A DNA stretch of 64,000 nucleotides from Bradyrhizobium sp. dw_411 (lineage in GTDB: Bacteria; Pseudomonadota; Alphaproteobacteria; Rhizobiales; Xanthobacteraceae), in the NCBI RefSeq assembly GCF_018449695.1, contig NZ_JAAVUY010000011.1:149001-213000 (forward strand), in the 5' to 3' direction. Every line of letters begins with the position of its first letter. The stretch's first letter is position 1. A program made the position numbers and the translations under genes. The notes beneath the pieces are model-generated. The model saw only the letters and a program-made list of their open reading frames with translations. It did no database searches and was not told the DNA's origin. Below are positions 26,433-56,550 of this stretch, piece by piece.

Positions 26433-27311
26433 ATGTCCGCCATGTTGCTGGCACAGCAAATCCTCAACGGGCTGCTTGACGGCGTTTATTATCTTTTGAT
26501 CGCGCTCGGCCTGTCGCTGATCTTTTCGCTCGGCGGCATCGTCAACCTGGCGCATGGCGCGTTCTATGCGATCGGCGCCTATCTCACGCTGGTGCTGTCG
26601 CCCTATCTCGGCTTCGGCGGCGCGTTCGTGGCGGCGCCGATCGCGGTCGCGCTGTTGGGAATGGCGATCGAGCGTACATTGTTCCGGCGCTTTTATCGTT
26701 CCGATCCGATCCTCTCGCTGCTGATGACGTTCGGCCTTGCCATGGTCGCCGAGCAGGCGTTGCGGATGATCTTCGGCGCGCCGCCATTATCCTTTTCGAT
26801 ACCGCCGTGGTTGCGCGGACAGGTCGCGATCGGCAGCTTCATCTATTCGTTCTATCGCGTGGTATTACTTGGCATCGCGGCGACCTGCGTCGCCGGCCTG
26901 TGGCTGCTGCTGCAAAAGACATCCTTCGGCCGCGTGGTGCGCGCCGGCGTACAGAATCCGGACATGGTCGGCGCGCTCGGCATTTCGCTGCAGCCCTATA
27001 TGTCCGCCGTCGCTGCGCTTGGGATCGGGTTGGCGGGCCTCGCCGGCGTGTTGCTGGCGCCGATTTATTCGATCCATCCGGCGATGGGCCAGGAGATCAT
27101 CACACCGGCTTTCGTCGTTGTGGTGATCGGCGGTCTTGGATCGTTCTGGGGCGTGGTGGCCGCCGCACTGCTGGTCGGCCTCGTCAAAGGCCTCATGGTC
27201 GGCATCGGCTATTCCGCGGCGTCCACCGCGGCGATCTATCTGTTGATGCTGCTTGTCTTGCTGTTCCGGCCGCGCGGCCTGTTCGGCGAGCGCATCACCC
27301 GGTTCGAGTGA
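26433..27311 (+). CDS. branched-chain-type ABC permease, LivH family
   Basis: A 292-residue inner-membrane permease with about eight hydrophobic segments and the LivH landmarks LIFSLGGIVNLAHGAFYAIGAY near the N-terminus and VVVIGGLGSFWG in the last third. It forms the channel with the LivM domain encoded by the next gene, whose start lies eight bases after this stop. No unusual features were seen. Confidence 0.9.
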   Translation: MSAMLLAQQILNGLLDGVYYLLIALGLSLIFSLGGIVNLAHGAFYAIGAYLTLVLSPYLGFGGAFVAAPIAVALLGMAIERTLFRRFYRSDPILSLLMTFGLAMVAEQALRMIFGAPPLSFSIPPWLRGQVAIGSFIYSFYRVVLLGIAATCVAGLWLLLQKTSFGRVVRAGVQNPDMVGALGISLQPYMSAVAALGIGLAGLAGVLLAPIYSIHPAMGQEIITPAFVVVVIGGLGSFWGVVAAALLVGLVKGLMVGIGYSAASTAAIYLLMLLVLLFRPRGLFGERITRFE

Positions 27312-27319
27312 GGCGCGGA

Positions 27320-41280: not shown

Positions 41281-43371
41281 ATGCCGAACCATGCCTCGAA
41301 CTATGCTTTGGCCGTCGATATTGGCGGGACTTTCACCGATGTGGTTCTGAGAAGCGGCTCCGGCCAGACTTCAGGCCAGACCTGGGTCGACAAGACACTC
41401 ACCACCCCCGAAAGCCTCGACATCGGGTTCTTCCGCGCCGTCGATTCCGCGCTGGCCAAAGCCGGAATCGAGGCCGCCGCCGTGACCGACGTGGTCGTCC
41501 ACGCCACCACCGTGGTCACCAACGCAGTGATCGAGCGCAAGGGACCGTTGACGGCGCTGCTGGTCACCGACGGCTTCCGCGACATCCTCACCATCAAGGA
41601 CGAACATCGCTACGAGATGTTCGATCCGCAGATCGAATTCCCCGAACAACTTGTCACCCGCGAGATGACTTTCGGGGTGCCGGAGCGCGTGCTGGCGAGC
41701 GGAGACGTGCTCACGCCCCTCGATACCGTCAGGGCAGCCGCGATCGTCGATGATCTCAGGGCGAAGGGCGTAGTGTCCGTCGCGATCTCCTTCCTCAACT
41801 CCTATCTCAACCCGGCGAACGAACGCGCGATGCGTAAGGTGTTGCAGGCGCGCGCACCGGGCATGTATGTCTCGATCTCGTCGGATGTCGCGCCGCAGAT
41901 CCGTGAATATCCGCGCACCTCCACGGTGGTGATGAACGCCTACACCACGCCGATCACGGGTCCTTATCTCGACGCGCTACGCGACGGCCTGCGCAAGCGC
42001 GGCTTCGTCCACGATCCCTTGATCATGCTGAGCAATGGCGGCGTCATCGGCATCGACATCGCCAAGAAGTTTCCAGTGCGCATGGTGGAATCCGGCCCGG
42101 CCGCCGGCGCGCTGGCAGCGGCCTATTATGCCGAGGTGCTCGGCCTCGACCGCCTGCTGTCGTTCGACATGGGCGGCACGACGGCGAAGGCTTGTATCAT
42201 CGAGGATCGTCATCCGCTGATCAGCGGCAATTTCGAAGTCGACCGCATCTATCGCTTCAAGACCGGCAGCGGCCTACCGATTTTGATTCCCTCGGTCGAC
42301 ATGATCGAAATCGGCGCGGGCGGCGGCAGCATCGCCTCGGTCAGCAATCTCGGCCTGTTGAAGGTAGGGCCGCGCAGCGCCGGCTCGACACCGGGCCCGG
42401 TCGCCTATAGCCGCGGCGGCCAGGACGCCACAGTGACCGACGCCGACCTCGTGCTCGGCTATCTCAGCGCGGACAATTTCCTCGGCGGCGACATGAAGCT
42501 CGATCTGGCCGGCGCCGAGAAACAATTGGCGAAACTGGGCGAGAGCCTTGGCACATCGGTGCGCGACGTCGCCGCCGGTATTTATCGAGTGGTCGGCGAA
42601 TCCATGACCGCTGCTGCGCGCGCGCATGCCGTCGATCGCGGCATCGACTATCGCGGCGTGCCGTTGTTTGCCTTCGGTGGCGCCGGTCCGGTCCATGCCT
42701 GTTACGTCGCTGAATTGCTCGACAGTCCGATGGTGATCTATCCGCCGCTGGCGAGCGTGCTGTCCGCCTTCGGCACATTGGTGACGCCGCCGCGTCTCGA
42801 TCTCAGCCAGGGCGCGCTATCGCGCCTGTCAGCGCTGAAATGGGACGATGTCGATCGTATCGTCGCCAAGCTCGTTGCAGACGCCAGCAGCGGATTGGCC
42901 AGTGCCGGCTGCAAGCCGTCCGACATTCAGTTCCAGTTCGGGGCTGATCTGCGCTATTTCGGCCAGCAGAACGAAGTGACCGCCTGGTTCGATGCCGATC
43001 CGCGCCAACAACACGACGCGGCGCGGGTGCGCGCCATCTTCGAGGACGCCTATGAAAAGCTCTATAGCTTGCGGCTGCCCGAGGTGGATGTGGAGATCGT
43101 CAGTTGGCGCCTTGTTGCCACCGGCCCGGTCGCATCGCGCGACAGCAAGGTCGCGCTTCAGTCGGCTGCCGCGAAACCGCAGGGCAAGCGCAGCGCGCGT
43201 TTCGGCGCCAACGACATCGAAACGCCGGTCTATGCCCGCAAGGACCTGGCGGAAGGGCAAACCCTCGAAGGGCCCGCCATCATCGAAGAACGCGAAACCA
43301 CGATCATCATCCTGCCGGGCTGGCGCGCCAAAGTGGACGCGACCGGCTGTATCATGGCGTCGAAGGAGTAG
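41281..43371 (+). CDS. hyuA: hydantoinase/5-oxoprolinase A subunit (HyuA family)
   Basis: A 696-residue ATP-binding subunit with the actin-like phosphate loops AVDIGGTFTDVVL at residues ~11-23 and FDMGGTTAKACII at ~297-309, and the C-terminal ACX-type core (DLRYFGQQNEV). With HyuB it forms an enzyme that uses ATP to hydrolyse hydantoins or 5-oxoproline, or to carboxylate ketones; the family alone does not tell these apart. ATG 41281 is preceded by CCTGAGGG. The gene leads a two-gene operon with hyuB behind a consensus promoter and opposite an IclR regulator. Confidence 0.9.
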   Translation: MPNHASNYALAVDIGGTFTDVVLRSGSGQTSGQTWVDKTLTTPESLDIGFFRAVDSALAKAGIEAAAVTDVVVHATTVVTNAVIERKGPLTALLVTDGFRDILTIKDEHRYEMFDPQIEFPEQLVTREMTFGVPERVLASGDVLTPLDTVRAAAIVDDLRAKGVVSVAISFLNSYLNPANERAMRKVLQARAPGMYVSISSDVAPQIREYPRTSTVVMNAYTTPITGPYLDALRDGLRKRGFVHDPLIMLSNGGVIGIDIAKKFPVRMVESGPAAGALAAAYYAEVLGLDRLLSFDMGGTTAKACIIEDRHPLISGNFEVDRIYRFKTGSGLPILIPSVDMIEIGAGGGSIASVSNLGLLKVGPRSAGSTPGPVAYSRGGQDATVTDADLVLGYLSADNFLGGDMKLDLAGAEKQLAKLGESLGTSVRDVAAGIYRVVGESMTAAARAHAVDRGIDYRGVPLFAFGGAGPVHACYVAELLDSPMVIYPPLASVLSAFGTLVTPPRLDLSQGALSRLSALKWDDVDRIVAKLVADASSGLASAGCKPSDIQFQFGADLRYFGQQNEVTAWFDADPRQQHDAARVRAIFEDAYEKLYSLRLPEVDVEIVSWRLVATGPVASRDSKVALQSAAAKPQGKRSARFGANDIETPVYARKDLAEGQTLEGPAIIEERETTIIILPGWRAKVDATGCIMASKE

Positions 43372-43376
43372 CTGAC

Positions 43377-44930
43377 ATGGACGGCATCGAGCTTGAGATC
43401 GTCTGGAGCAATCTCATCAGTATCGTCAGCGAACAGGCCAAGGCGCTGCAACGCATCGCCTTCAGCCCGATCGTTCGCGAGGCCGGCGACCTCGCCAACG
43501 CCCTGTTCGACCGGCAGGGCCGCATGGTGGCGCAGGCGGTGACCGGCACACCGGGCCACATCAATTCGCTGGCCGCGGCCGGCCGGCATTTCGTCGACGC
43601 CTTCCCGACCCAAACGCTGGCGCCCGGCGACGTCCTGATCACCAACGATCCCTGGCTGTCGGCCGGACATTTTTTCGACATCACCGTGATGTTGCCCGCG
43701 TTCCACAAAGACAAGCTGATCGGCTTTTTCGGCTCGACCATCCACCACACCGATATCGGCGGGTATGGCGTCGGCGCGGGCGCCCGGGACGTGCATGAGG
43801 AGGGTCTGTGGATCCCCATGCTCAAGCTTTACGAAGCCGGCGAACCGAACCAGGTGCTGCACAAGATGATCCGCGCCAATGTGCGCACGCCGGATCATGT
43901 GTTCGGCGATCTCGCCGCGCAAGTTTCGAGCGGACGCCTCGCCTGCAAGCGGTTGTCCGCCCTGCTCGACCGCCAAGGCTATGAAGATATCGACGAACTA
44001 TCCGAGGAGATCATCTCGCGCTCGGAAAAGGCCACCCGCGATTCGATCCGCAAGCTGAAAGCCGGCACCTTCCACGGCGAAAGCTCGTTCGACGTGCCCG
44101 GCGGCGACGTGATTACCCTCAAGACCGCCGTCACCGTCGACACCGACGAAGGCACGATCACGATCGATTTCGACGGCAGTTCCGGCCCGAGCCCTTACGG
44201 CATCAACGTGGTGATGAATTACACCCACGCCTATTCCACCTTCGCGATACGCTCGTGCCTCGACCCCGAACTGCCGAACAATTTCGGCAGCCTCGCGCCG
44301 ATCAAGGTGAAGGCGCCGGAGGGCTGTATCGTCAATTGCAAATATCCCGCGCCGGTCAACGCGCGCCATGTCGTCGGCATGTACGTCCCGATGCCGATCC
44401 TCAAGGCGCTGTATCACATCATGCCCGACCGCGTTCTGGCGGAAGGCTCCGGCGCGGTCTGGACCATCCAGATCCAGGGCAAGAACGCTGCCGGCGATCC
44501 CTTCACGAGTTCGATGTTCAACTATTCAGGCGGCATGGGCGCGCGCATGACCAAGAGCGGCCCCGCAGCGACCTGCTACCCGACCGGTGTCGCGGCCGTG
44601 CCGATCGAAGTGCTGGAAGCATCGATGCCGATTCTTTTCACCAAGAAAGAGCTGCGCGAAGGCTCCGGCGGCGCCGGCGCGTCGGTCGGCGGCGACGGAC
44701 AGGTGATCCAGTGGCGTATGCGGACGGACAGCGATTGGCTGCTCAACGCCGTTGCGAGCCGCATCAGCCTCGCTCCGGAAGGGCTCGGCGGAGGCAAGCC
44801 CGGGGCGGCCGGGCGATTTCTTGTCAACGGCAAGAACGCCAGCGAAGCGCGCAAGATGGTGATGAAGCCGGGTGACGAGGTCACGCTGGAAACCCCGGGC
44901 GGCGGCGGCTACGGCGCGCCCAGAGCCTGA
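43377..44930 (+). CDS. hyuB: hydantoinase/5-oxoprolinase B subunit (HyuB family)
   Basis: A 517-residue partner of HyuA. Family landmarks are IVREAGDLANALFDRQGRMV, a GHINSL segment, DVLITNDPWLSAGHFFDI, HHTDIGGYGVGAG and the Gly-rich C-terminus LETPGGGGYGAP. The start at 43377 lies five bases past the hyuA stop with a GGAGTAGCTGAC sequence before it, so the pair is translationally coupled. The protein converges on livF of the third ABC operon with a 13-base gap. The substrate is not determined. Confidence 0.9.
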   Translation: MDGIELEIVWSNLISIVSEQAKALQRIAFSPIVREAGDLANALFDRQGRMVAQAVTGTPGHINSLAAAGRHFVDAFPTQTLAPGDVLITNDPWLSAGHFFDITVMLPAFHKDKLIGFFGSTIHHTDIGGYGVGAGARDVHEEGLWIPMLKLYEAGEPNQVLHKMIRANVRTPDHVFGDLAAQVSSGRLACKRLSALLDRQGYEDIDELSEEIISRSEKATRDSIRKLKAGTFHGESSFDVPGGDVITLKTAVTVDTDEGTITIDFDGSSGPSPYGINVVMNYTHAYSTFAIRSCLDPELPNNFGSLAPIKVKAPEGCIVNCKYPAPVNARHVVGMYVPMPILKALYHIMPDRVLAEGSGAVWTIQIQGKNAAGDPFTSSMFNYSGGMGARMTKSGPAATCYPTGVAAVPIEVLEASMPILFTKKELREGSGGAGASVGGDGQVIQWRMRTDSDWLLNAVASRISLAPEGLGGGKPGAAGRFLVNGKNASEARKMVMKPGDEVTLETPGGGGYGAPRA

Positions 44931-44943
44931 TTGGCTCAACGCG

Positions 44944-45585
44944 TCAAGCCGGACTTACAGATCCGCGCTCGATCCGGAAGGCGCGCGACAACAGATCAGC
45001 GACGTGCACCTCGTTGGATTCCGCGATCAGAACGGAAATTTTCTCGGTCTTCAGGTTCGCCAGCACTTCGCCGAGCCGCCGCGCCAGCGCGGGAGCGAGC
45101 CCCTCGAAGGGTTCGTCGAGCAGCAGCATGCGCGTTCCCGCCATCAGCGCGCGCGCCAATGCGACCAGTTTCTGCTGCCCGCCGGACAATTCGAGCGACG
45201 GCCGGGCACGGAACGCGGCGACTTCTGGCATCAGCCCGAAAATCCAGGCAAGACGTTGATCGGCGTCGGTCGCCTTGAGCGCTAGGGCCGGCAGGCGGAC
45301 ATTTTCCTCGACCGTGAATTCCGGCACCAGCCGGCGATCTTCCGGCATGTAGCCGACGCCGTGCGCTGCGCGCAGATGCGGCGGCAGGGTCAACAAGTCG
45401 ATCGAACCGAGTTCAGCGACGCCGCTGGCCGGAAGGGCGCCCATGATGGCGCGGAACAGCGTGGTTTTGCCCGCACCGTTGCGGCCGATCAGCCCGCATA
45501 TTTCGCCTTCTTCGAGCGCGAAGGATGCGCCGCGGATAATCGGGACCGGCCCGATCGAGACGTTGAGGTTGGATACTTTAAACAT
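44944..45585 (-). CDS. branched-chain-type ABC ATPase, LivF family (third system)
   Basis: A 213-residue ATPase, about 20 residues shorter than usual LivF proteins. Walker A is GRNGAGKTT, signature LSGGQQKLVALARAL and Walker B MLLLDEPFEGL; the H-loop His of the usual VEQ/VEH position is replaced in IAESNEVH, which is common for LivF. ATG 45585 overlaps the livG end by eight bases (ATGTTTAA). It is the last gene of the operon and converges on hyuB. Confidence 0.9.
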   Translation of the reverse strand: MFKVSNLNVSIGPVPIIRGASFALEEGEICGLIGRNGAGKTTLFRAIMGALPASGVAELGSIDLLTLPPHLRAAHGVGYMPEDRRLVPEFTVEENVRLPALALKATDADQRLAWIFGLMPEVAAFRARPSLELSGGQQKLVALARALMAGTRMLLLDEPFEGLAPALARRLGEVLANLKTEKISVLIAESNEVHVADLLSRAFRIERGSVSPA

Positions 45586-46369
45586 GGCGGGCCGCGCCGG
45601 CGGCGCCCTTCAATCTGGGGCCGCTGATCAACGTCTGAATGCGCTCATCGCCCAGCGTTTCGCTCGGCGTCCCGTCGGCAATTACAGTACCGTCGTAAAA
45701 TGCCAGCACACGCTCGGCGAAGCGCTCGACGATCTCCATGTCGTGCTCGACGAACAGCACCGTGATCTTGCGATTGCGCAACGCCGACATCACCACCTGC
45801 ATCAGGCCGAATTTCTCCTCGATCGAGATGCCGCTGGTCGGCTCGTCGAGCAGCAGCAGGCGCGGCGAGCCCGCGACCGCCATGCCGATGTCGAGCAGCT
45901 TGCGTATCCCCTGCGGCAGGTTGGCCGCGAGCGTATCGCGGTAACGCGCGATCTCGAACAGTTCCAGCAAGGTCTCGGCCTCGGCGACGGATTCCTTTGA
46001 GCGCAGCGGCGTGTAGAGATGGCCCAGGAGATTTTTCGGCGCACGGCAGACCGCGGCCGCAGCGCACATGTTCTCGAATACCGTCAGCGAGGGGAATATC
46101 TGAGCCACCTGAAACGAGCGCGAAATGCCCATGCCGGTGATCCTGCGCGACGGCAGGCCGGTAATGTCGCGCTGCTCGAAGTGAATCGTTCCATTGGTCG
46201 GCCGCAGATGACCTGTAATCATGTTGATGAAAGTGGTTTTCCCGGCGCCGTTGGAGCCGATCACGCCGACCGTCTGCTGCGCCGGCACGCTGAGCGTGAT
46301 GTCGCGCGCGGCGGTCATCGCGCCGAAGCGCTTGCCGAGGTCGCGGACGCTGAGGATCGGCGCGTTCAT
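45578..46369 (-). CDS. branched-chain-type ABC ATPase, LivG family (third system)
   Basis: A 263-residue ATPase from ATG 46369, which overlaps the livM stop by ATGA. Walker A is GSNGAGKTT, the LivG motif ITGMGISRSFQVAQIFPSLT is present, the signature region is LPQGIRKLLDI (a divergent form) and Walker B is LLLLDEPTSGI with VEHDMEIVERFA after. The frame can be read to 46606, but that extension lies antiphase in livM. Confidence 0.92.
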   Translation of the reverse strand: MNAPILSVRDLGKRFGAMTAARDITLSVPAQQTVGVIGSNGAGKTTFINMITGHLRPTNGTIHFEQRDITGLPSRRITGMGISRSFQVAQIFPSLTVFENMCAAAAVCRAPKNLLGHLYTPLRSKESVAEAETLLELFEIARYRDTLAANLPQGIRKLLDIGMAVAGSPRLLLLDEPTSGISIEEKFGLMQVVMSALRNRKITVLFVEHDMEIVERFAERVLAFYDGTVIADGTPSETLGDERIQTLISGPRLKGAAGAARHV

Positions 46370-47316
46370 GGCGCGGCCGCCTTGCGGCGCCAGCGCAGCC
46401 GCGTGACCAATGAGCCCAGCCCCTGGGGCAGGAACAGAATGGTCAGCAGCAGCACCGAGCCGAGCAGCATCTGCCAAAGCTGCGGCAGCATGGCGAAGGC
46501 AAACGAGCGCAAGGACTCGAACGCCAGCGATCCGACGAATGCCGAGACCACCGATCCGGCGCCGGAAAGGATGGTGATAAAAACGAATTCGCCCGATGTG
46601 GTCCAATAGGACATGTTCGGATCGACATGGCCGATCGCGAACGCGGCTAGCGCGCCGCCCATGCCGGCCAGCAGACCGCTGATCACCAGCTTGGTATGGA
46701 TCAGCCGCGACACCGACATGCCGAGAAATTCGACCCGAATTTCATTGTCGCGCACCGGCATCGCCAGCGCGCCGGACACCGAGCGAAAATAGGCATCGAT
46801 CAGGAACGCCGCGATCGCGCAGACCGCGAGCACCAGCCAGTAGAGCGCCATCAGCAGCTTTTCCTGATGCGGCGCATAGCCAAAGAAGGTTGGCGAGGCG
46901 ACGCTGAAGCCGTCGGTCGAGCCGAGCGACTCGGCTTTGACCAGCACACCGTAAAGGATCATGGACAGCGCCAGACTAAGCATCGCGAAAAAGATTTCAC
47001 GGTAGCGCGCCAGCAGGAAACCCACCACGAAAGCGACCAGCCCGGCTGCGGCGCCACCGATCAACATCAACAGGAAGGCATCGGTCACGCCGGTCGCCCG
47101 GCCGACCAGCGCCACGGCATAAGCGCCGATGCAATAATACAGCGCCTGTCCGAACGAGACGAGGCCGGCGCGCCACAACACGATCAGGCCCAGCACGACC
47201 AGGCCGTTGGCAAAGGCGATGGTGGCGAGCGAGATAATCCAGTCCGGCAGCACGAAGGCTGCGGCGGCGGCCAGCAGCAAGGCCGCACCAGCCGCTATCC
47301 GGCCGTGCCGTGCCAT
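46366..47316 (-). CDS. branched-chain-type ABC permease, LivM family (third system)
   Basis: A 316-residue permease with about nine membrane segments. Landmarks are WRAGLVSFGQALYYCIGAYA, VGFLLARYREIFFAMLSLAL and ITILSGAGSVVSAFVG. It starts one base after the livH stop, so translation is coupled. Sequence is clearly different from the LivM of the second system, arguing for a different ligand rather than a recent duplication. Confidence 0.92.
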   Translation of the reverse strand: MARHGRIAAGAALLLAAAAAFVLPDWIISLATIAFANGLVVLGLIVLWRAGLVSFGQALYYCIGAYAVALVGRATGVTDAFLLMLIGGAAAGLVAFVVGFLLARYREIFFAMLSLALSMILYGVLVKAESLGSTDGFSVASPTFFGYAPHQEKLLMALYWLVLAVCAIAAFLIDAYFRSVSGALAMPVRDNEIRVEFLGMSVSRLIHTKLVISGLLAGMGGALAAFAIGHVDPNMSYWTTSGEFVFITILSGAGSVVSAFVGSLAFESLRSFAFAMLPQLWQMLLGSVLLLTILFLPQGLGSLVTRLRWRRKAAAP

Positions 47317-47317
47317 C

Positions 47318-48220
47318 TCAGATTCTTCTCGGTTGGGCGCGCACGAACAGACCGTAAGGCCGGATCATCAGCACCAGCGCCATGACGCCATAGATAACGA
47401 ACAGTTCAACCTGCGGCACCAGATGCACCGCGGCCGCGCGGCATATCCCGACGATCAATGCCCCGATCAGCGCGCCTTCGATCGATCCCATGCCGCCAAT
47501 CGCCACCACGGCGAAGGCGAGCACGATCACTTCGACGCCGATGCCGAGCGTCACCGCGATCTTCGGCGCCATGATCGCCCCGCCGAGCGCACCGAGCATC
47601 GCGCCAATGACAAACGTGATGGTGTAAACCGCCGTGACATTGATCCCGAAGGCTGCAGCGGTTTCGCGATCGAAAATCACGGCGGTCAACAATCGTCCGT
47701 AGCGGGTGAATTTCAGCGCCCACCAGGATATCACGGCGATCAATGCCGCCGTCGCAATCAGGCCGAGATCGTAGTTCGACAAGATCAATGCACCGACGGC
47801 CGTATTTCCGGCGGCGAGCAGCGGCTGATAGGTCGGGTAGGACTGCGCGCCCCAGACCAGGATGACAACGTCTTCGAGGATCAGGAAAGCCGCGTAAGTC
47901 ACCAGCACCATCACCACTTCGTCACGGCCATAGACCAGTCGCATGACGCTGCGTTCTAGAATAAGCCCGAGCACGAGCCCGAGCGCCATCGCGAGCAACG
48001 CCATCAGCAGGAACCCGCCGGCATCCGGCCAGCCGCGATCGAAATAGATGCCGATCGCGGTCGCCGCCCCATAGGCGCCGAACGTGTAGAACGAGCCGTG
48101 CGCGACGTTCAGGATCTTCATCACGCCGAAAATAAGCGTCAAACCGACGGCGACGATGAACAGGTAGGCCGCATAGACCAATCCGTCGATCAAAATGGCA
48201 AAGGCGGTCAGCACCGACAT
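47318..48220 (-). CDS. branched-chain-type ABC permease, LivH family (third system)
   Basis: A 300-residue permease with about eight membrane segments and LivH landmarks LIFGVMKILNVAHGSFYTFG and VVAIGGMGSIEGALIGAL. It is separated from the binding-protein gene by 70 bases that hold a strong hairpin. It is followed directly by livM. Confidence 0.92.
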   Translation of the reverse strand: MSVLTAFAILIDGLVYAAYLFIVAVGLTLIFGVMKILNVAHGSFYTFGAYGAATAIGIYFDRGWPDAGGFLLMALLAMALGLVLGLILERSVMRLVYGRDEVVMVLVTYAAFLILEDVVILVWGAQSYPTYQPLLAAGNTAVGALILSNYDLGLIATAALIAVISWWALKFTRYGRLLTAVIFDRETAAAFGINVTAVYTITFVIGAMLGALGGAIMAPKIAVTLGIGVEVIVLAFAVVAIGGMGSIEGALIGALIVGICRAAAVHLVPQVELFVIYGVMALVLMIRPYGLFVRAQPRRI

Positions 48221-48240
48221 TTCCTGACAAAAACATCAGC

Positions 48241-48270
48241 CGTCGCGGGGACGTCGTTCGCCCCGCGACG
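48241..48270. terminator. intra-operon hairpin CGTCGCGGGG / CCCCGCGACG
   Basis: A perfect ten-base stem with a ten-base loop lies between the binding-protein stop and livH, with no U run after it. In binding-protein operons such hairpins commonly act as partial terminators or 3' stabilisers that raise binding-protein level over permease. This role is inferred from position. Confidence 0.6.
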
Positions 48271-48290
48271 ACGGGCTGGCGCGGTGTCGC

Positions 48291-49601
48291 TCAGCACTTC
48301 GCGCCTTTCATGCCGTCCTTGATCCAGTCATCGGCCGTGACGCCTGCCGGCGGGTTCACACATTCGGCGGGAAAGCGCATGATGTCGACGATTTCGGGCT
48401 CGTTCTTCGCCTTGTTGAAGCGGTAGATGCCGTAAGCCGTCCCCATGATGCCCTGATGCCCATCCCCGATCGCCAGCTTGACCACGCCTGCGGGGCCTTC
48501 GAACTCGATGCCTTTGAAGGACGCGGCTATTTCGTCCGAAGTCGGCTTCGTGTCGCCTTTCCTGGCCTTTTCATAAGCCAGTTTCAGCCCGAGCAGCGAC
48601 ATCACCATTTGATAGGCGGGATAGGTCGGCGGCGTGCCGTAGCGGTCGGTATAGATCTTCTGGAACCAGCGGTTAAATTCGCTGTCGGGCGCAAGCGGAC
48701 CGAACGGACCGCGGGCGCCGATGATGGTGCCGTCGGGCATCTTGTCGCGCAGGCGCCAGATCGCGGCTTCGCCGGTTGTCGCGATGATCGTCATGCGCTT
48801 GTCCAGCGCGCGGGCCTGTTCCTGATAAAGAAACGCTTCGAGATCGCCGTCATAGAAGCTTGTATGCAGCACCGGCGAGCTTGAGGTCAGCAGCGTCGAA
48901 ATCTCCGCGCCATATTCGCCCGCGAACAGTTTCGGGAAAAGCGACTTGTCGATGGTCACCTTCGGCGCAAGCACCTGCATCGCACCGGTGAAGTCCCGCC
49001 AGGAATCCTGACCCCAGGCGTAATTCTGGTTGATGCCGGAATAGCTGGTGACGTCAGGTTTTTTGGCTAGCAGGTAACGCGCGGCGCCGACATTATCGAT
49101 GGTCGACAGCGGGCTGACGCGGAATACATAGGCGCGCGGTTTTTCCTCGAAGATGCGCGGCGTTCCGCAATCATAGAACACCGTGATCGCCTTCAGTTCC
49201 TCGGCGACCGGCGTAACCGCCAGGCAGTTGCCCGAAGAGATATAACCGACCACGGCCTCGACCTGATCGCGCTGCACGAGGTTGCGGAACTCAGTGACGA
49301 CGTTGGCGGCAGAGCCCGTCTCATCGATATATTTCGCTTCGACAGTCGTGCCGCCGAAACCAATCTTGTTGAAGGGCGCCGGCACTTTTCCCGCGTTCAT
49401 GGCGTCGATCAGGACCTCGGCGCCATTGCGTCCGGGGATGCCGAACGGCGCCGCGGCGGGCCCGGTCAGGAAGCTGACGATGCCGAGCTTGATGGTTGAA
49501 GCGTTCTGCGCCTGCGCGGGAAAAATCGCCGCGCCCAGCAATGCCGCCAATAACCACGACGACTTGAGCGCGCCTGCAAGCGAACTTTCTCGATTAAACA
49601 T
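48291..49601 (-). CDS. branched-chain-type ABC binding protein (third system)
   Basis: A 436-residue periplasmic type I binding protein with a signal peptide (about residues 1-32, ending Ala-Gln-Ala-Gln). Mature landmarks are KLGIVSFLTGPAAAPFGIPG, the VGYISSGNCLAVTPVAEEL ligand segment and TSYSGINQNYAWGQDSW. It is larger than usual LivK by about 50 residues, with four cysteines. It follows the DHDPS-family gene by 66 bases on the same strand, so ligand and enzyme substrate may be linked. Confidence 0.92.
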   Translation of the reverse strand: MFNRESSLAGALKSSWLLAALLGAAIFPAQAQNASTIKLGIVSFLTGPAAAPFGIPGRNGAEVLIDAMNAGKVPAPFNKIGFGGTTVEAKYIDETGSAANVVTEFRNLVQRDQVEAVVGYISSGNCLAVTPVAEELKAITVFYDCGTPRIFEEKPRAYVFRVSPLSTIDNVGAARYLLAKKPDVTSYSGINQNYAWGQDSWRDFTGAMQVLAPKVTIDKSLFPKLFAGEYGAEISTLLTSSSPVLHTSFYDGDLEAFLYQEQARALDKRMTIIATTGEAAIWRLRDKMPDGTIIGARGPFGPLAPDSEFNRWFQKIYTDRYGTPPTYPAYQMVMSLLGLKLAYEKARKGDTKPTSDEIAASFKGIEFEGPAGVVKLAIGDGHQGIMGTAYGIYRFNKAKNEPEIVDIMRFPAECVNPPAGVTADDWIKDGMKGAKC

Positions 49602-49667
49602 TCCTACCCTCCCCGTACGATTCCATTTTGGGCGTTTTGCCCGTTTTATCGTTTTATAATGACACCC

Positions 49668-50639
49668 CTAAGCGGCCGTGCTGTTGGCCATCCTGTCATC
49701 GAGCAGGCCGGACTCCACCAGCGCCTGCCGTATCCGCCCGATTTCGGCGCTGCCGAGCTTGACCAGCGGCGGCCGCACCACGGCGCGCGGCAACTTGCCG
49801 AGCAGCACCAGCGCTTCCTTCATCCGGTTATGCATATCCGCCCACGGCTCGGCGTAGAAACAGCGCGCCAGCGGTTCGATGCGATCGTTCAGGCGCTTCG
49901 CCTCCGCCAGATTATTGCTCTGGACCGCCTGGAATAATTGCGCGTGCAGATCGGGGATAACGCTGCCGCTGCCGGACAGCAATCCGTTGCAGCCGAGTAC
50001 CAGCGAAGAAAACAGCCAGGCGCTGTGCGTGGTCAATACGTTCACGGGCCGCGAGAGATTTTGCAGCGTGCGGATATGCCATTCATGGTGCGGTACATTG
50101 CCGATCCAGTCCTTGATGGCGCGGATCGACGGCACCTCGCGACACAGGCGCAGCAGTGTCTCCTTTGGATAGCCTTGGCCGGTGGCCAGCGGATATTGAA
50201 ACGCGATCAGCGGCAGGTCGGTGGCGTCGGCAATGCGCTTGAAATGCGCCAGCGCCATCTCGGGAGACTGGCCGAGCGTGAACGGCGCGGGAGGAAACAC
50301 CAGCAGCGCCGATGCGCCGCCCTGGGCGGCCATGCGCGCAAGGCGCGCCGCTTCCAGACTGCCATCAGCCCAGATGCCGTTGACGATCGGCAAGCGCGCG
50401 CCAATTTCGTCCCGTGTAATGTCGAGTACGCGGCGTTGTTCGTCGAAGGTGCAGGAAGCGACCTCGGTCGAATGCGCATTGATGGTGATGGCGGAAAGGC
50501 CCGGGGTTGCGGCGACGTCGCGCAGGTGCTTGCGGAAATTTGCTTCGTCAATGGCAAGGTCGTTGTCGAACGGCAGCAGGACCGCCGGAATAACCCCGTG
50601 GGGGACATAGACCGAGCTTTGGGCCGAGGTTTGGGACAT
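49668..50639 (-). CDS. DHDPS/N-acetylneuraminate-lyase family protein
   Basis: A 323-residue class I aldolase-type TIM barrel. ATG 50639 has an AAGGGAGGGCTT ribosome site; the frame upstream to 50696 lacks one. Schiff-base Lys176 (AIKDW) and Tyr149 (FQYP) are in the family positions. The usual GTTGE loop near residue 55 is changed to NAHSTEV, so the substrate is not the lysine-pathway one. Members act as sugar-acid aldolases or dehydratases. It heads the third ABC operon and is divergent from two enolase-superfamily genes, which fits a hydroxy-acid dehydratase/aldolase route. Confidence 0.88.
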   Translation of the reverse strand: MSQTSAQSSVYVPHGVIPAVLLPFDNDLAIDEANFRKHLRDVAATPGLSAITINAHSTEVASCTFDEQRRVLDITRDEIGARLPIVNGIWADGSLEAARLARMAAQGGASALLVFPPAPFTLGQSPEMALAHFKRIADATDLPLIAFQYPLATGQGYPKETLLRLCREVPSIRAIKDWIGNVPHHEWHIRTLQNLSRPVNVLTTHSAWLFSSLVLGCNGLLSGSGSVIPDLHAQLFQAVQSNNLAEAKRLNDRIEPLARCFYAEPWADMHNRMKEALVLLGKLPRAVVRPPLVKLGSAEIGRIRQALVESGLLDDRMANSTAA

Positions 50640-50945
50640 AAGCCCTCCCTTGAACATTATGGGCGTTGTTGCCTCAAGGTAATCCGATCTCGACACTCAT
50701 TGTCAATTGACGGTACGTCGCGGAAGCCTGTTAGCTCCGCCGCCGGGACCGAAATGGTAAACCGGTCCGCCGGCGCAACCTCAGATCAATCTCACGGCAT
50801 GTGACGCCGCGCCCTGCCGATCGCCCGGCCGTCTCGGCCAGCGCTATGCGGGCGACCTGCCCCATGATAAACAGGGTCAAGCGCACCAACAATAACAAGC
50901 GCGAAGGGAGTCCTGCACCCTGCCTGGGGTCGGGTTCGAGCTACA
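50640..50945. other. divergent promoter region with palindrome GTCAATTGAC
   Basis: About 300 bases between the leftward lyase/ABC operon and the rightward enolase-superfamily genes. It holds a perfect ten-base palindrome, GTCAATTGAC, at 50702-50711 (context CATTGTCAATTGACGG), of the sort bound by GntR/FCD regulators. No regulator gene adjoins this gap, so the site may be read by a protein coded elsewhere. No reading frame of note was found. Confidence 0.5.
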
Positions 50946-52043
50946 ATGAAAATCACGCAGGTATCGGGCGTCGTTTACCGCCAGCAATTCAAACCTGGCG
51001 GGCCCACGCCAAAATTCGCCGGCGAAGGCCGAAATACGTTCGAGACATTGCTGGTCAAGGTCGAAACCGATGAGGGGATCGTCGGCTGGGGCGAGGCCTT
51101 TCCGCACCGGGTGTGGCCGGCCGTCAAGTCGCTGCTGGAGAGCCTGATCGCGCCTGTTTGCATCGGTGCGGACGCGTCAGATATTCCCGCGCTGATGAAA
51201 AGACTGATCTACCACGTGCATGGCGTCGGGCGCGCCGGCCCTGTGATGTATGCGCTATCAGGGCTGGATATCGCGCTCTGGGACATTCTCGGAAAGTCAA
51301 AAAGTCTGCCGATCTACCAACTGCTAGGCGGCAAGCCATGCGCGAAACTTCCGGCCTATGCCAGTCTTCTGAAATATAACGATACCGATATTGTCGTGCG
51401 CACCTGTAAAGAGGCGCTGGATCGCGGTTACAGCGAACTCAAGATCCACGAGACCGGCCGCGCCGAAATCACCGCGGCTGCGCAAGTGCTGCGACGGCAC
51501 AATGGCGGTTCGCTGATGGTGGACGTCAATGCACCGTGGACGCCAAGCGAAGCCTTGTCCGCCGTCGCGCCCTTGCGCGAACTCGGTCTGAAATGGATCG
51601 AGGAGCCGGTTTGGCCGCCGGAAGATTTCGAAGCTGCACGTCAAATCAGCTTAGCTGGCGTGCCGGTCGCGATCGGCGAAAATGTCCTGACACCCTCGGA
51701 TTTTGCGCGGCTGATCGACAGCCGGTCGGTCGATTATGTCCAGCCGAGCGTCACCAAGATCGGCGGCATATCGATCGCGCGAGACATTATCGCCGCCGCC
51801 AACGCAGCGAACGTGGCAGTCGCACCGCATTCCGCCTATTTCGGTCCGGGTCTGATCGCGACCGCGCATCTGGCTGCGGCGTTCGGGCGCGCGCCGATGG
51901 TCGAGCGGCTTTATTGCGACCTCACGGAAAGCCCGTTCGGTGACTGGTACGAACCGGTCGATGGCCATCTTGCGGTCCCGCAAGGGCCGGGGCTCGGCAT
52001 CGATCCCGATCCAGCGATTCTGGAAAAACTTCGCGTCGCGTAA
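50946..52043 (+). CDS. enolase-superfamily enzyme (mandelate racemase/muconate lactonizing type) 1
   Basis: A 365-residue enzyme with N-terminal capping domain and TIM barrel. The catalytic Lys166-Ile-His168 replaces the more usual K-x-K; metal ligands Asp193 (MVDVNAPW), Glu219 (WIEEP) and Glu245 (AIGEN) are present, and His295 (APHSAY) may be the second base. It probably abstracts the proton alpha to a carboxylate and dehydrates or epimerises a sugar acid. It lies 13 bases before a second, clearly different superfamily member, so the two are cotranscribed. Confidence 0.88.
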   Translation: MKITQVSGVVYRQQFKPGGPTPKFAGEGRNTFETLLVKVETDEGIVGWGEAFPHRVWPAVKSLLESLIAPVCIGADASDIPALMKRLIYHVHGVGRAGPVMYALSGLDIALWDILGKSKSLPIYQLLGGKPCAKLPAYASLLKYNDTDIVVRTCKEALDRGYSELKIHETGRAEITAAAQVLRRHNGGSLMVDVNAPWTPSEALSAVAPLRELGLKWIEEPVWPPEDFEAARQISLAGVPVAIGENVLTPSDFARLIDSRSVDYVQPSVTKIGGISIARDIIAAANAANVAVAPHSAYFGPGLIATAHLAAAFGRAPMVERLYCDLTESPFGDWYEPVDGHLAVPQGPGLGIDPDPAILEKLRVA

Positions 52044-52056
52044 GCCGGAGGACAAG

Positions 52057-53145
52057 ATGAAAATTCAGGGTATCAAGGTCAATTTCGTCCGCCTGCCGCT
52101 GGAGGAGCCGCTGGTCGGCGCACCCTATATGCCCGGGATGCTGCGCGAATTCTTCACCGTGCAGGTGCAGACTGACCAGGGCATCGAGGGAATCGGCATC
52201 ACCGGCTTTGGCGGCAATCTGGTTCGTTCGCTGCGCGCCGCACTCGAGGATTTCGGCGAGCTGATCAAGGGCGACGACCCGCTGCGCACCGAACAGGTCA
52301 ACGCCAAACTGCGCGCGGCGTCGGCCTCCTGCGGCTCCGGCATTGCCCTGCTGGCGATTTCGGCGATCGATACGGCGCTGTGGGATATCCGCGGCAAGGC
52401 CTTCGGCATACCCCTGGCGCAGTTGTTGGGCGGCGCGCGCGACAAGGTGCCGGCCTATGCCAGCGGCGCGCTGACGCGCACCACGCCCAACGACAAGATC
52501 GAACGCGCCGCCTCCGCGCTGGTCGAGAAGGGCTATCGGCAGGTCAAGACCCAGATGGCGGTGGAAGGGTTTACGCCCAAACAGGAGATCGAGCGCATTC
52601 GGATGATCCGCGACGCGGTCGGGCCTGACGTCAATCTGATGGTGGACATCAACCAGCGCTGGAGCGTCGCCGAGGTGATTTCGATCGGCCACCGCATCGA
52701 AGACCTCGGCCTCGGATGGCTGGAGGACCCGACCACCTGCGACGACTATCAGGGCCACGCGAAGATCGCCGATGCGCTGGCGACGCCGGTCTGCGCCGGC
52801 GAATATCTCTGGGGCATCGAGCCGCACCGGCAGGCGATAGCCCACCATTCGGTCGACATCACCATGATCGATCTGCTGCGCGTCGGCGGCATCACGCCAT
52901 GGATGAAGGTCGCCGGCATGGCGGAAGCCCACAACAAGCCCGTGGCCAGCCATCTGCTGCCTGAAATCCATGTGCATTTGATCGCCGCCATACCGAACGG
53001 GCTGGTGGTCGAATACATGCCGTGGACCTGGCGCCTGTTCGACAATCCGCCGATGCCGGTCAACGGCGAAATCGCCGTGCCGACCGGACCCGGCCTCGGG
53101 CTGAAATTCGCGCCGGATTTGTTCGAAAAATATGGCGTTGGCTAG
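52057..53145 (+). CDS. enolase-superfamily enzyme 2
   Basis: A 362-residue paralogue of the preceding fold but distant in sequence. The catalytic position reads Lys164-Thr-Gln166; metal ligands are Asp197 (MVDINQRW), Glu223 (WLEDP) and Glu249 (CAGEYLW); His299 lies in ASHLLPEIH. Ribosome site CCGGAGGACAAG precedes ATG 52057. The different K-x-H and K-x-Q motifs of the two enzymes suggest two steps or two stereoisomers of a substrate. Together with the DHDPS-family lyase and GMC oxidoreductase this indicates breakdown of an acid sugar or hydroxy acid. Confidence 0.88.
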   Translation: MKIQGIKVNFVRLPLEEPLVGAPYMPGMLREFFTVQVQTDQGIEGIGITGFGGNLVRSLRAALEDFGELIKGDDPLRTEQVNAKLRAASASCGSGIALLAISAIDTALWDIRGKAFGIPLAQLLGGARDKVPAYASGALTRTTPNDKIERAASALVEKGYRQVKTQMAVEGFTPKQEIERIRMIRDAVGPDVNLMVDINQRWSVAEVISIGHRIEDLGLGWLEDPTTCDDYQGHAKIADALATPVCAGEYLWGIEPHRQAIAHHSVDITMIDLLRVGGITPWMKVAGMAEAHNKPVASHLLPEIHVHLIAAIPNGLVVEYMPWTWRLFDNPPMPVNGEIAVPTGPGLGLKFAPDLFEKYGVG

Positions 53146-53261
53146 CGCGGCGGGAGCGCAGACCAGATGAATTTATCTAATCTGCGCCCTTACAAATTTC
53201 ACGGGCGGCGCGTGGCTCGGCCGCGATAGGGTCGCTGAGAAGCAACATCGCGGCGTTGGGA

Positions 53262-54899
53262 ATGAGTGAAAATAGAACAGAACTTGGCAGGTTCGATTAC
53301 GTGATCGTCGGCGCGGGCTCCGCCGGATGTGTATTGGCCAATCGGCTGTCCGCCGACCCGTCGATCCGGGTCTGCCTGCTGGAGGCCGGTGGCAAGGACA
53401 GCCATCCCTGGGTGCACATTCCCGTCGGATATTTCTTCAACTTCGATCATCCGCGGGCGGATTGGCGCTATCGCACCGAACCCGAACCGGGCCTCAATGG
53501 CCGGGTGCTGAAATATCCCCGCGGCCGCGTGCTGGGCGGAACGTCATCGATCAACGGCATGGTCTACATTCGCGGGCACGCGCTGGATTACGACGGATGG
53601 CGGCAGCTCGGCAACGTCGGCTGGAGTTGGAGCGACGTACTGCCCTATTTCAAGCGCTCGGAAAACCAGGTGCGCGGCCCCAGCGAAACCCACGGCGTGG
53701 GCGGGGAATTGGCGGTCGACGATTTGCGCGCCTCCTGGGAAATTCTCGACGCCTTCCGCAAGGCCGCGATCGAAAGCGGCATTCCCGCGACCGACGATTT
53801 CAACGGCGGTGAAAGCGAGGGGATCGGCTATTTCCAGGTGACGCAGAAAAATGGCCGCCGCATGAGTACGTCGCGCGCGTTTCTGAAACCGGCGGCGGCG
53901 CGCAAGAACCTGACTATCCTGACCGGCTGCCTGGTGCAGCGGATTCGCTTCGGCGGCAAGCGAGCCGTGGGCGTCGAATTCCTCAAGGACGGCGCACCGG
54001 CTTACGTCGCGGCGGAGAACGAAGTCATCCTGTCGGCCGGCGCGGTGGGATCGCCGCAAATCTTGCAGCTTTCCGGCATCGGCGCGCCCGCGTTGCTGGG
54101 AGATCAGGGTATCGCGGTCAGGCATGCGGCGCCGCGGGTCGGTGAAGGACTGCAGGATCATCCTGCGGTGCGCATGATGTTCAAGGTCGAGAACACAACG
54201 ACGCTGAACGATCAACTGTCGAGCTGGGTCAGCAAGGCCGCGATGCTCTTTGAGTACGCGCTGCTGCGCAGGGGGCCGTTGACGATCCCGCCCGCGCTGG
54301 TCAACGCGTTCGTGAAAAGCGATCCGGCCCGCGCCGCGCCGGATCTGCAATATGTGGTCTATCCATTGACCTACGACATGATCGGCGAGCCGGCGCATAC
54401 ATTCTCGGCCTTTACCGGCTCGATCTGCCTGGTGCGGCCGGAAAGCCGCGGCTCGATTCGCATCACATCGCCTGACGCCCGCGTCTCTCCGCAGATACGG
54501 CTTAATTTCCTGGACAACCCCACCGACATTCAGGCGGCGGCCGCCGGCATTCGCGGCATGCGGCGGGTGTGCGCGGCCGATGCCTTGAAGCCGTTCAATG
54601 TGCGCGAATTCAGGCCCGGGCCGGAGTTGGTCACCGACGAGCAGATCGCAGCGGCTGCACGCGATATCACCGCGACGATCTTTCATCCGACCAGCACTTG
54701 CGGGATGGGACCGGATGACACCGCTGTGGTCGATGACCGCTTGCGCGTGCGCGGCGTCGAGCGCCTGCGTGTCGTCGATGCGTCCGTGATGCCGATGGTC
54801 GTCTCGGGAAATACCAACGCCGCCACCATCATGATCGCGGAGAAGGCATCGGACATGATCCGCGAGGATCGCCGTCAAAGCGCCGCCGCCGTTGCCTGA
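53262..54899 (+). CDS. GMC-family FAD oxidoreductase (choline/alcohol dehydrogenase-like)
   Basis: A 545-residue flavoprotein. FAD-binding GAGSAG is at residues 18-23, followed by ADWRYRTEPEPG and the GMC signature GRVLGGTSSINGMVYIRG; the C-terminal active site has HPTSTCGMG (His) and GNTNAA (Asn). Members oxidise primary alcohols or choline to aldehydes. ATG 53262 was preferred to a TTG two codons earlier; no strong ribosome site is seen for either. It follows the two enolase-type genes by 116 bases and is likely part of the same rightward pathway. A perfect hairpin spans its stop codon. Confidence 0.9.
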   Translation: MSENRTELGRFDYVIVGAGSAGCVLANRLSADPSIRVCLLEAGGKDSHPWVHIPVGYFFNFDHPRADWRYRTEPEPGLNGRVLKYPRGRVLGGTSSINGMVYIRGHALDYDGWRQLGNVGWSWSDVLPYFKRSENQVRGPSETHGVGGELAVDDLRASWEILDAFRKAAIESGIPATDDFNGGESEGIGYFQVTQKNGRRMSTSRAFLKPAAARKNLTILTGCLVQRIRFGGKRAVGVEFLKDGAPAYVAAENEVILSAGAVGSPQILQLSGIGAPALLGDQGIAVRHAAPRVGEGLQDHPAVRMMFKVENTTTLNDQLSSWVSKAAMLFEYALLRRGPLTIPPALVNAFVKSDPARAAPDLQYVVYPLTYDMIGEPAHTFSAFTGSICLVRPESRGSIRITSPDARVSPQIRLNFLDNPTDIQAAAAGIRGMRRVCAADALKPFNVREFRPGPELVTDEQIAAAARDITATIFHPTSTCGMGPDDTAVVDDRLRVRGVERLRVVDASVMPMVVSGNTNAATIMIAEKASDMIREDRRQSAAAVA

Positions 54900-54912
54900 C
54901 AACGGCGGCGGC
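54882..54912. terminator. bidirectional terminator hairpin between convergent genes
   Basis: A perfect 13-base stem (GCCGCCGCCGTTG / CAACGGCGGCGGC) with loop CCTGA overlaps the stop codon of the GMC gene and ends five bases before the stop of the leftward binding-protein gene. On the + strand a T-rich AGGCTTTATTTC follows. Being symmetrical, it can serve both converging transcripts. Confidence 0.75.
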
Positions 54913-54917
54913 AGGCT

Positions 54918-56129
54918 TTATTTCTTGACCATCGGGCATTTGCTTTCGCTTAACGGGCGAAACGCCTTCTCGCCGGGAACGGTATCGAGAATCTTGTAGT
55001 AATCCCACGGGCGCTTGCTTTCCTCGGGCGTTTTGACCTGGGCCAGCAGCATGTCGTGGATCATGAGATTGTCTTCGCGCAGCACCGCGTGGCGCGCATA
55101 CATGTCATCGAGCGGCATCTTGTGCATCATCGCCAGAACATCTTCCGCTTTGTCGCTCTTGGCGGCTTCCATCGCCTTGAGATATTGCAGGGCCGCCGAA
55201 TAATCCGCGGCATGGCTCAAATTCGGCATCGATCCCATCTTCTTGTAGTAGCGCTCGGACCACGCCCGCGTTTGGTCATCCATATCCCAATAGAAGTCGG
55301 ACGAGAGCACAAGTCCCTTGGTGGTCTTGAGACCGAGGGCATGAATGTCGGTGATGAACACCAGCCCGCTGACGAATTTCGCGGTCTTCAGAAGACCGAA
55401 TTCCTCGGCCGTCTTCAACGCATTCACCATGTCGTCGCCGGCGTCGGCGAGCGCAATAACCTGGGCGCCGGAATTCTGGGCGGAGAGGATGTAAGACGCG
55501 AAATCGGAGGCCGCGAGCGGATGGAAAACGCTGCCCAGCATCTTGCCGCCGGACGCATTGACGATCTGCGTCATTTCCTGTTCGAGCGCGTGACCGAGAT
55601 TGTAATCGGCGCCGATCACATACCAGGTCTTGGCGCCTGTCTTCATCATGGCTTCCGTGATCGCCTTCGAAGCGGCAAACGTATCGCTGCGCCACTGCAC
55701 CGTATATGGATTGCACTGGCCCATGTTGAGCGCGGAGGTAGCACCGTTGCTCGCCAGGAACACCTTTTTTCGATCATTCGCGGCCGCGGCCACCGCCAGC
55801 GACACGCCCGAGCCGACGACATCGACAATGGCGCTGACGTCTTCCTGATCGTACCAGCGTCGTGCGATGGCGCTGCCGACGTCCGTCTTGTTCTGATGAT
55901 CGGCGCTTACGACTTCGATCGGCCTCCCCAGCACCTTGCCGCCCATATCTTCAACCGCGAGCTGCACGGCCGCCACGGCGCCTTTGCCCGAAAGGGCCTG
56001 ATAGATGCCCGACATATCGCCGAGAACACCGATCTTGATTGGAGCGGTCGATTTGTCTTGTGCAAAGGCTGCGGAAGCCCATCCGCAAAGCAACGCGACA
56101 CAGGCAACAGAGAACGGAGTTTTGGACAT
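54918..56129 (-). CDS. branched-chain-type ABC binding protein, orphan
   Basis: A 403-residue periplasmic type I binding protein; ATG 56129 opens the signal peptide (about residues 1-23, ending Ala-Phe-Ala-Gln), while the frame to 56219 has no ribosome site. Landmarks are KIGVLGDMSGIYQALSGKGA, VVSADHQNKTDVGSAIARRW and WYVIGADYNLGHALEQEM, the urea/amide-binding LivK subgroup by pattern. No permease or ATPase gene adjoins it, so it probably supplies one of the Liv systems nearby or elsewhere. Confidence 0.9.
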   Translation of the reverse strand: MSKTPFSVACVALLCGWASAAFAQDKSTAPIKIGVLGDMSGIYQALSGKGAVAAVQLAVEDMGGKVLGRPIEVVSADHQNKTDVGSAIARRWYDQEDVSAIVDVVGSGVSLAVAAAANDRKKVFLASNGATSALNMGQCNPYTVQWRSDTFAASKAITEAMMKTGAKTWYVIGADYNLGHALEQEMTQIVNASGGKMLGSVFHPLAASDFASYILSAQNSGAQVIALADAGDDMVNALKTAEEFGLLKTAKFVSGLVFITDIHALGLKTTKGLVLSSDFYWDMDDQTRAWSERYYKKMGSMPNLSHAADYSAALQYLKAMEAAKSDKAEDVLAMMHKMPLDDMYARHAVLREDNLMIHDMLLAQVKTPEESKRPWDYYKILDTVPGEKAFRPLSESKCPMVKK

Positions 56130-56550
56130 CGGCGTTTTTCCAAATGGAGAGCAAAATTGAAACAGACCGGCAGCAATCGGCGCGCCTGCGCAAGGCGTCA
56201 CTGCCTTCGAGCAGCGCATCCGGCGCTAAAGTCTTTCGCGGCACAAATGATGAAAATTCAATAACCCATTAGAGTTCTGAATTGCCGCGCTGCAGCAATG
56301 CAGACGATCTGAAAATGTGTGAAGAAATATCGGAATTGCCCCGTCGGAAGATCCTCGTTTTACGGGTGTGCGAAGAGGTGGGCGACATAAAGTCGCGTCA
56401 ACTCTCGACCCTTCGGGTCCACCAAGCGGCGCGAACCAGTCAAGGCTCTCGGCGCCACGATCGCGTGGTCAATCGGCGAAATCTTCGTTCTTGCGAACGA
56501 ATTGCTTCGGATGAATGTCGACATCCTGGTCTCTTGAAACGCGCCCATCT
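56130..56550. other. gene-free stretch upstream of orphan binding protein
   Basis: About 420 bases between two leftward genes. A 64-codon leftward frame (56360-56554) and a rightward frame (56282-56665) exist, but neither has a convincing ribosome site or recognisable sequence, and the second overlaps the next gene antiphase. AT content is higher than in neighbouring genes, suiting promoter DNA for the orphan binding protein. Confidence 0.4.

Follow-up and report, generated by a model that had tools for sequence, protein, structure and literature searches.

A divergent lyase, importer and enolase cluster in Bradyrhizobium sp. dw_411 is probably a mosaic of two catabolic modules

The window analyzed here is a 64,000-nucleotide stretch of Bradyrhizobium sp. 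dw_411 (assembly GCF_018449695.1, contig NZ_JAAVUY010000011.1, positions 149,001 to 213,000). The host genome is 7.3 Mb in 54 contigs and is designated G000 among the genus genomes compared. The window contains two divergent units. One encodes a lyase of the DHDPS superfamily and a complete HAAT/Liv-type ABC importer. The other encodes two mandelate-racemase-like members of the enolase superfamily (enolases 1 and 2) and a GMC oxidoreductase. The original prediction, made from the sequence of the window, had described both units, and every gene that it named was located where it had placed it, with Pfam or NCBIfam matches. The stretch that it covered left out hyuA and hyuB, which both run toward livF. 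Coordinates are listed in Table 1.

The two units align to different relatives. Positions 44948-50712, with the lyase and the transporter (block A), align in one piece to genus genome G052 with 85.7% identity over 5,795 aligned positions. Positions 50861-53145, with both enolases (block B), align in one piece to G172 with 83.3% identity over 2,285 positions. DNA comparison places the junction inside the stretch between them (Table 1). An orthologue of enolase 1 was present in 2 of 265 genus genomes, the host and G172 (E<=1e-110). Enolase 2 had orthologues in four (the host, G172, G282 and G283; E<=1e-70). The lyase was present at 81% or more in six (the host, G052, G082, G036, G213 and G295). 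None of G172, G282 and G283 belonged to the 40 genus genomes in which the lyase had a match at E<=1e-100. At these thresholds, no genome of the 265 other than the host contained both blocks.

The neighbors of the lyase were compared more widely in 80 named loci, the best 80 of 562 relatives, by tblastn (E<=1e-10) within 8 kb. The search located a HAAT binding protein in at least 23 loci, LivG in 24 and TctC-type proteins in 17. Seven loci had both HyuA and HyuB, and five had a GMC protein. No locus yielded an enolase (0 of 80). The HAAT count is a lower bound, as this search misses overly divergent binding proteins at some loci that have LivF, LivG and LivH (one, in L206, was found by blastp). 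In all six genus genomes with a close lyase, the adjoining gene encodes a HAAT binding protein. It is the orthologue of the window protein, SBP1, in the host, G052, G082 and G213, and a different protein (28-29%) in G036 and G295. A fixed pairing of the lyase with the Liv system was rejected on the named loci, despite the six genus orthologues. Two relatives of SBP1 (L119 and L120, 64-65%) have Liv genes of their own, and no lyase was recognized among their called neighbors.

The region probably joins two ordinary catabolic modules that differ in ancestry, rather than forming one sugar-acid pathway. Blocks A and B need not share a substrate in the host strain, because their linkage is not conserved. 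A cluster that reads like one pathway would thus be a mosaic of two modules, which is a caution for pathway prediction from a single genome.

The lyase is the oddest part of the region and the part most worth a bench test. Its GTG start at 50696 is probably too early, as orthologues begin near an internal Met. The structure model has a mean predicted local distance difference test score (pLDDT) of 86.9. It has the DHDPS TIM-barrel fold, with a best Z of 38.4 and a root-mean-square deviation of 1.9 over 297 aligned residues. Identity to the 50 structures listed is 20-29%. The lyase shares this fold and the Schiff-base lysine with the DHDPS/NAL superfamily, which includes DapA, the KDG-type aldolase YagE and human HOGA. 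The lysine, at the DapA K161 position, is K195. It is conserved in 11 of 11 rows of alignment A1 and in all 80 named loci. Unlike DapA and HOGA, the lyase has Phe166 in place of the catalytic Tyr (DapA Tyr133, HOGA Tyr168), and Phe is present there in 80 of 80 loci. The position of the GXXGE carboxylate loop reads HSTEV, or near variants of it in relatives. According to PMC3188589, HOGA Y168F and DapA Y133F lose activity, and the Tyr is taken as the acid/base of a proton shuttle. The structure of the DHDPS Tyr133Phe mutant (1s5w) is row 50 of the fold search with the lyase.

Y168, H75 and E78 are each conserved in all 80 named loci. H75, E78 and H289 lie inside the peptide patterns used for finding the loci, so their conservation is partly selected. 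F166, Y168, K195 and H204 lie outside the patterns. In the more distant rows of alignment A1, F166 is invariant and Y168 is variable. As a control for the Tyr133 position, 12 loci with distant homologues were given and 11 were aligned. Phe (in FQYP) was present in six of six homologues from other genomes, at 34-36% identity. It is therefore a feature of a wider group and not peculiar to the window lyase. Among five paralogues from the host genome, two had Tyr and three had His or Gln, so the family does not always have Tyr there.

The lyase matched seven NCBIfam models, each with a score under the curated cut-off. For KdgD (5-dehydro-4-deoxyglucarate dehydratase, TIGR03249), it scored 71 bits against a cut-off of 373.95. 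It is possible, though we would not favor it, that the lyase represents a widespread DHDPS-superfamily clade catalyzing a reaction new to the superfamily. The clade would keep the Schiff-base lysine, and conserved Asn-x-His-x-x-Glu, Phe-x-Tyr and His-Glu elements would replace the relay Tyr and the GXXGE loop. Its substrate would be a carboxylate imported by HAAT or TctC-type systems. No publication on this clade or on the window cluster was found in the open-licence literature. A conserved clade with an altered active site, often near carboxylate-type importers, is a tractable target for new chemistry.

A lyase with 71% identity is encoded in a record of Streptomyces sp. DSM 15324 (L220). It lies beside genes for an FMO-type monooxygenase and an aldehyde dehydrogenase. 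Cross-phylum transfer and contamination are both possible sources of this actinobacterial gene.

The importer is complete in one run (44944-49601) and encodes a binding protein, two permeases and two ATPases. SBP1 has 16% identity to LivJ in alignment, and the register of residues is therefore uncertain. We take the contacts of LivJ with the alpha-amino acid to be S79, A100, T102 and E226, with T102 and E226 binding the ammonium group. In this 16% identity alignment, SBP1 keeps Ser79 and Tyr202. It has Asp for Ala100, Gly for Thr102 and Ala for Glu226. D144-C145-G146 is invariant in a 13-row alignment of SBP1. The SBP1 model has a mean pLDDT of 86.6, and the nearest fold is 3i45 from Rhodospirillum rubrum (Z 44.5, 24% identity). 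Rows 2, 4, 5, 6 and 7 of the fold search are binding proteins with 17-19% identity. At least four of these five have titles with 4-hydroxybenzoate, p-hydroxybenzoate or vanillate, and four name Rhodopseudomonas palustris. Binders of amino acids, urea and L-pyroglutamate are interleaved or come later in the list (Z 42-39). Given these mixed ligand classes, the fold does not settle the ligand of SBP1.

The window importer probably carries no ordinary branched-chain amino acid, since the ammonium contacts of LivJ are absent and aromatic-acid binders are among the nearest folds. It resembles the aromatic-acid HAAT importers of R. palustris in its five components and in near folds solved with 4-hydroxybenzoate and vanillate. 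It differs in that SBP1 is 17-19% identical to those proteins. The original prediction had called a Liv-type importer an unusual match for a hydroxy or sugar acid. Its departure from ordinary branched-chain amino acids is probably right; the word unusual does not hold up. In a survey of R. palustris (PMC3223731), 22 COG0683 binding proteins mismatched their annotation as branched-chain amino acid or amide binders. Leu, Ile, Val or short amides gave a response with very few of them; their ligands were aromatic acids, fatty acids, dicarboxylates and/or other amino acids. By this survey, it is not exceptional in this bacterial family for a Liv-type importer to serve another carboxylate.

The host genome has 70 matches to HAAT-type binding proteins, of which 69 are above the family cut-off. 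Elsewhere in the window, a single long frame (26807-29839) matches a permease domain of the LivM type together with two ABC ATPase domains and so resembles a fusion of LivM, LivG and LivF. One of the 70 HAAT-type matches is a lone binding protein encoded at 54918-56219. It has no adjoining permease or ATPase gene and is convergent with the GMC gene.

Both enolases look catalytic from their residues, with altered sets of bases. The Lys-x-His and Lys-x-Gln motifs of the original prediction are present as K166-x-H168 in enolase 1 and K164-x-Q166 in enolase 2. We take the His-Asp dyad of mandelate racemase to be H297-D270 and used it as the reference for numbering and residue roles. The roles of the metal ligands are likewise assigned from what we take to be general for the superfamily. 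Enolase 1 has the metal ligands D193, E219 and E245. Its dyad positions are H295 and Ser268, with Ser in place of Asp. Enolase 2 has the metal ligands D197, E223 and E249, the dyad H299 and D272, and E319. The three acidic metal ligands are invariant in the alignments of enolase 1 (A2, 13 rows) and enolase 2 (A3, 8 rows). Of the 13 rows of A2, 12 have H168 and 10 have Ser268, with Asp in place of that Ser in the other three. In A3, Gln166 is present in four of eight rows, the window protein and three close orthologues; three rows have Arg and one has Lys.

Each enolase scored under the curated cut-off of all 15 NCBIfam models that it matched. The top curated model for both is L-talarate/galactarate dehydratase (NF047820), with 245.6 bits for enolase 2 and 151.7 for enolase 1 against a cut-off of 500. 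They share with this dehydratase and with mandelate racemase the two-domain architecture, the metal ligands, the first Lys of the KxK motif and the equivalent of His297. They differ in having His or Gln as the second residue of that motif, in Ser for the dyad Asp of enolase 1, and in scores of about half the cut-off or less. In the open-licence papers searched, no literature match was found on a Lys-x-His motif or on mandelate racemase residues.

The pair in G172 is 86% identical to each of the two enolases. The same stretch of G172 (L140 with L141) encodes D-hydantoinase-like, Asp/Glu/hydantoin racemase and EutA/arylmalonate-decarboxylase-like proteins. It also encodes a CN-hydrolase, a hotdog thioesterase, a PrpD-like protein and an MFS-like transporter, the last named from the start of its sequence. 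In three of three other genomes (G172, G282 and G283), enolase 2 has the CN-hydrolase and the hotdog thioesterase no more than about 4 kb away. In G282 and G283 the thioesterase directly adjoins enolase 2, and no orthologue of enolase 1 was found at E<=1e-110. These neighbors suggest that enolase 2 works in an amide or ureide context, though the remaining hydantoin-type genes were observed in G172 alone.

More distant enolase relatives were sampled in 18 loci (L040-L052 and L129-L133). In L129, from genome G092, three successive enolase-superfamily genes adjoin a Liv-type operon on the same strand (6.8-14.4 kb).

A second lyase of the host genome lies in an operon on contig C53 (166000-184000, L039), here called the C53 operon. 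The operon encodes FAAH, HyuA, HyuB, IclR, the lyase, a binding protein, LivHMGF and a 3-hydroxyisobutyrate-dehydrogenase-like protein. Operons of this type recur with variations in Hyphomicrobiales and Burkholderiales (L172, L174, L186, L194, L201, L233 and L234). They resemble block A in a lyase of the same subfamily (71-81%) and in adjoining Liv genes. They differ in gene order and in HyuA. Across eight loci, including two from Burkholderiales, the HyuA proteins of the operon share 60-92% identity. The window HyuA is 36-39% identical to that clade and 34-36% identical to four other HyuA proteins of the host. Being hardly nearer to the clade than to the other HyuA proteins, it is not the enzyme of the C53 operon. 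HyuA lies within 8 kb of both host lyases, but HyuAB as a conserved unit with the window lyase was rejected on the same identities.

The GMC protein had a best match of 52% in the five other genomes searched. It scored 483.2 against a cut-off of 732.1 for the BetA model (TIGR01810) and 578.4 against 605 for the PRK02106 subfamily model. Two records of R. palustris (L206 and L216) contain a C53-type operon in which a GMC oxidoreductase, 51% identical to the window protein, replaces HyuAB.

Module A (44944 to about 50712) consists of the importer and the lyase. SBP1 may capture a carboxylate, probably not an alpha-amino acid, and LivHMGF would import it, as homology predicts. Lys195 would form a Schiff base with a 2-oxo acid, which the lyase would cleave or dehydrate without the Tyr133 of DapA; the residues are observed and the chemistry is predicted from them. 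Module B (50861-53145) consists of the tandem enolases, which may abstract the alpha-proton of a Mg-bound carboxylate. As the likely base, enolase 2 would use His299-Asp272 and enolase 1 His168 and/or His295. Neither conserved block includes the GMC oxidoreductase or HyuAB.

The original prediction had joined lyase, importer and enolases into one sugar-acid route. The Liv system would import an acid sugar or hydroxy acid, enolase 1 or 2 would dehydrate it to a 2-keto-3-deoxy acid, the lyase would cleave or dehydrate this product, and the GMC enzyme would oxidize an alcohol. The divergent units bring all of these enzyme classes together in less than 10 kb, the top curated model of both enolases is an acid-sugar dehydratase and the lyase weakly matches KdgD. 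The route is unlikely, however. The blocks are inherited separately, tblastn detected no enolase within 8 kb of the lyase in the 80 named loci, none of the three enzymes reaches an acid-sugar cut-off, and the lyase lacks the Tyr and the GXXGE loop described for HOGA and DapA. Several points weigh against the reading of two joined modules, and the first two also favor a single route. Liv genes adjoin at least two enolase-superfamily genes in 4 of the 18 distant loci, by gene order and tblastn (L040, L042, L050 and L129, of which L040 and L042 resemble one single arrangement). Within 8 kb of the C53 lyase paralogue lie both a Liv system and an enolase with 37% identity to enolase 1. Liv importers therefore recur in the company of mandelate-racemase-like enzymes. 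Under random placement, the probability of an enolase within 8 kb of both host lyases is about 0.001; it is about 2e-4 for HyuA and 0.02 for a HAAT protein, and all three estimates were chosen post hoc and carry little weight either way. The lyase neighborhoods cover the full 8 kb on both sides in 43 of 80 loci. The other 37 are short on at least one side, so missing neighbors are partly truncation. The counts also depend on the reference list used. The genus scan includes the genomes from which at least 12 of the 80 loci come, and the two samples are therefore not independent. Adjacent divergent genes may also act on one substrate in a single strain despite the lack of conserved linkage.

Enolases 1 and 2 might instead serve in a route for amides, lactams or hydantoins, where they could, for instance, racemize or dehydrate an N-acyl or N-carbamoyl acid. 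HyuAB would open the ring or amide in the host strain. The G172 neighborhood is consistent with this route, as are the CN-hydrolase and thioesterase that stay with enolase 2 in G282 and G283, and HyuAB lies about 6-10 kb from enolase 1. Against it, only G172 showed the hydantoinase and the racemase, and in G283 the contig soon ends. HyuAB is convergent with livF and outside both blocks, and the genome has seven HyuA proteins. Enolase 2 also lacks the second Lys of the KxK racemases, which we take to be catalytic. We consider this route improbable. The observation in the original prediction is confirmed, and its interpretation is partly supported.

Table 1. Features of the cluster and its flanks, with positions in the window
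Feature	Coordinates	Strand	Evidence
LivF-type ATPase, block A	44944-45585	-	NCBIfam UrtE/LivF-like matches under cut-off; conserved in G052 and G082; DNA colinear with G052 from 44948
LivG-type ATPase, block A	45578-46369	-	PF00005, 99.5 bits; conserved in G052 and G082
LivM-type permease, block A	46366-47316	-	UrtC/LivM-like matches under cut-off; conserved in G052 and G082
LivH-type permease, block A	47318-48220	-	PF02653, 111.9 bits; Ka/Ks 0.105 vs G052
HAAT-type solute-binding protein SBP1, block A	48291-49601	-	PF13458, 123 bits
DHDPS-superfamily lyase, block A	49668 to ~50639	-	PF00701, 114.4 bits
Stretch with the block A/block B junction	50713-50860		G052 colinearity ends at 50712; G172 colinearity starts at 50861
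Enolase 1, mandelate-racemase-like, block B	50946-52043	+	PF13378 and PF02746; 86% orthologue in G172
Enolase 2, mandelate-racemase-like, block B	52057-53145	+	PF13378 and PF02746; 86-87% orthologues in G172, G282 and G283
GMC oxidoreductase, outside both conserved blocks	53256-54899	+	PF00732 and PF05199
Terminator-like stem at the end of the GMC gene, 13 pairs (11 G-C)	54882-54912	+	Consensus scan
HyuA-type subunit, convergent with livF, not in block A	41281-43371	+	PF01968, 276.1 bits
HyuB-type subunit, convergent with livF, not in block A	43377-44930	+	PF02538, 480.4 bits

Among the genes of the two divergent units, the Pfam scan covered LivG, LivH, SBP1, the lyase, both enolases and the GMC protein, and all seven passed the family cut-offs. 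LivF and LivM were assigned with NCBIfam only. The coding signal was normal, with a GC content at third codon positions of 0.70-0.84. The ratio of nonsynonymous to synonymous substitution rates (Ka/Ks) against orthologues was 0.125 for enolase 1, 0.128 for SBP1 and 0.168 for the lyase; two orthologues of enolase 2 gave 0.150 and 0.130, and the LivH value is in Table 1. These six pairs cover five genes. The five genes are under purifying selection, and their decay is therefore unlikely.

No regulator gene lies between the two divergent units. A scan of 49500-55200 for sigma-70-like promoters returned 0 sites, with 1.5 expected. Terminator-like sites numbered 8, against 5.3 (standard deviation 2.5) in shuffles, which is statistically weak. 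The repeats in the intergenic stretch between the units are short only. A 14-nucleotide imperfect palindrome is present at 50810-50831, within the junction of blocks A and B.

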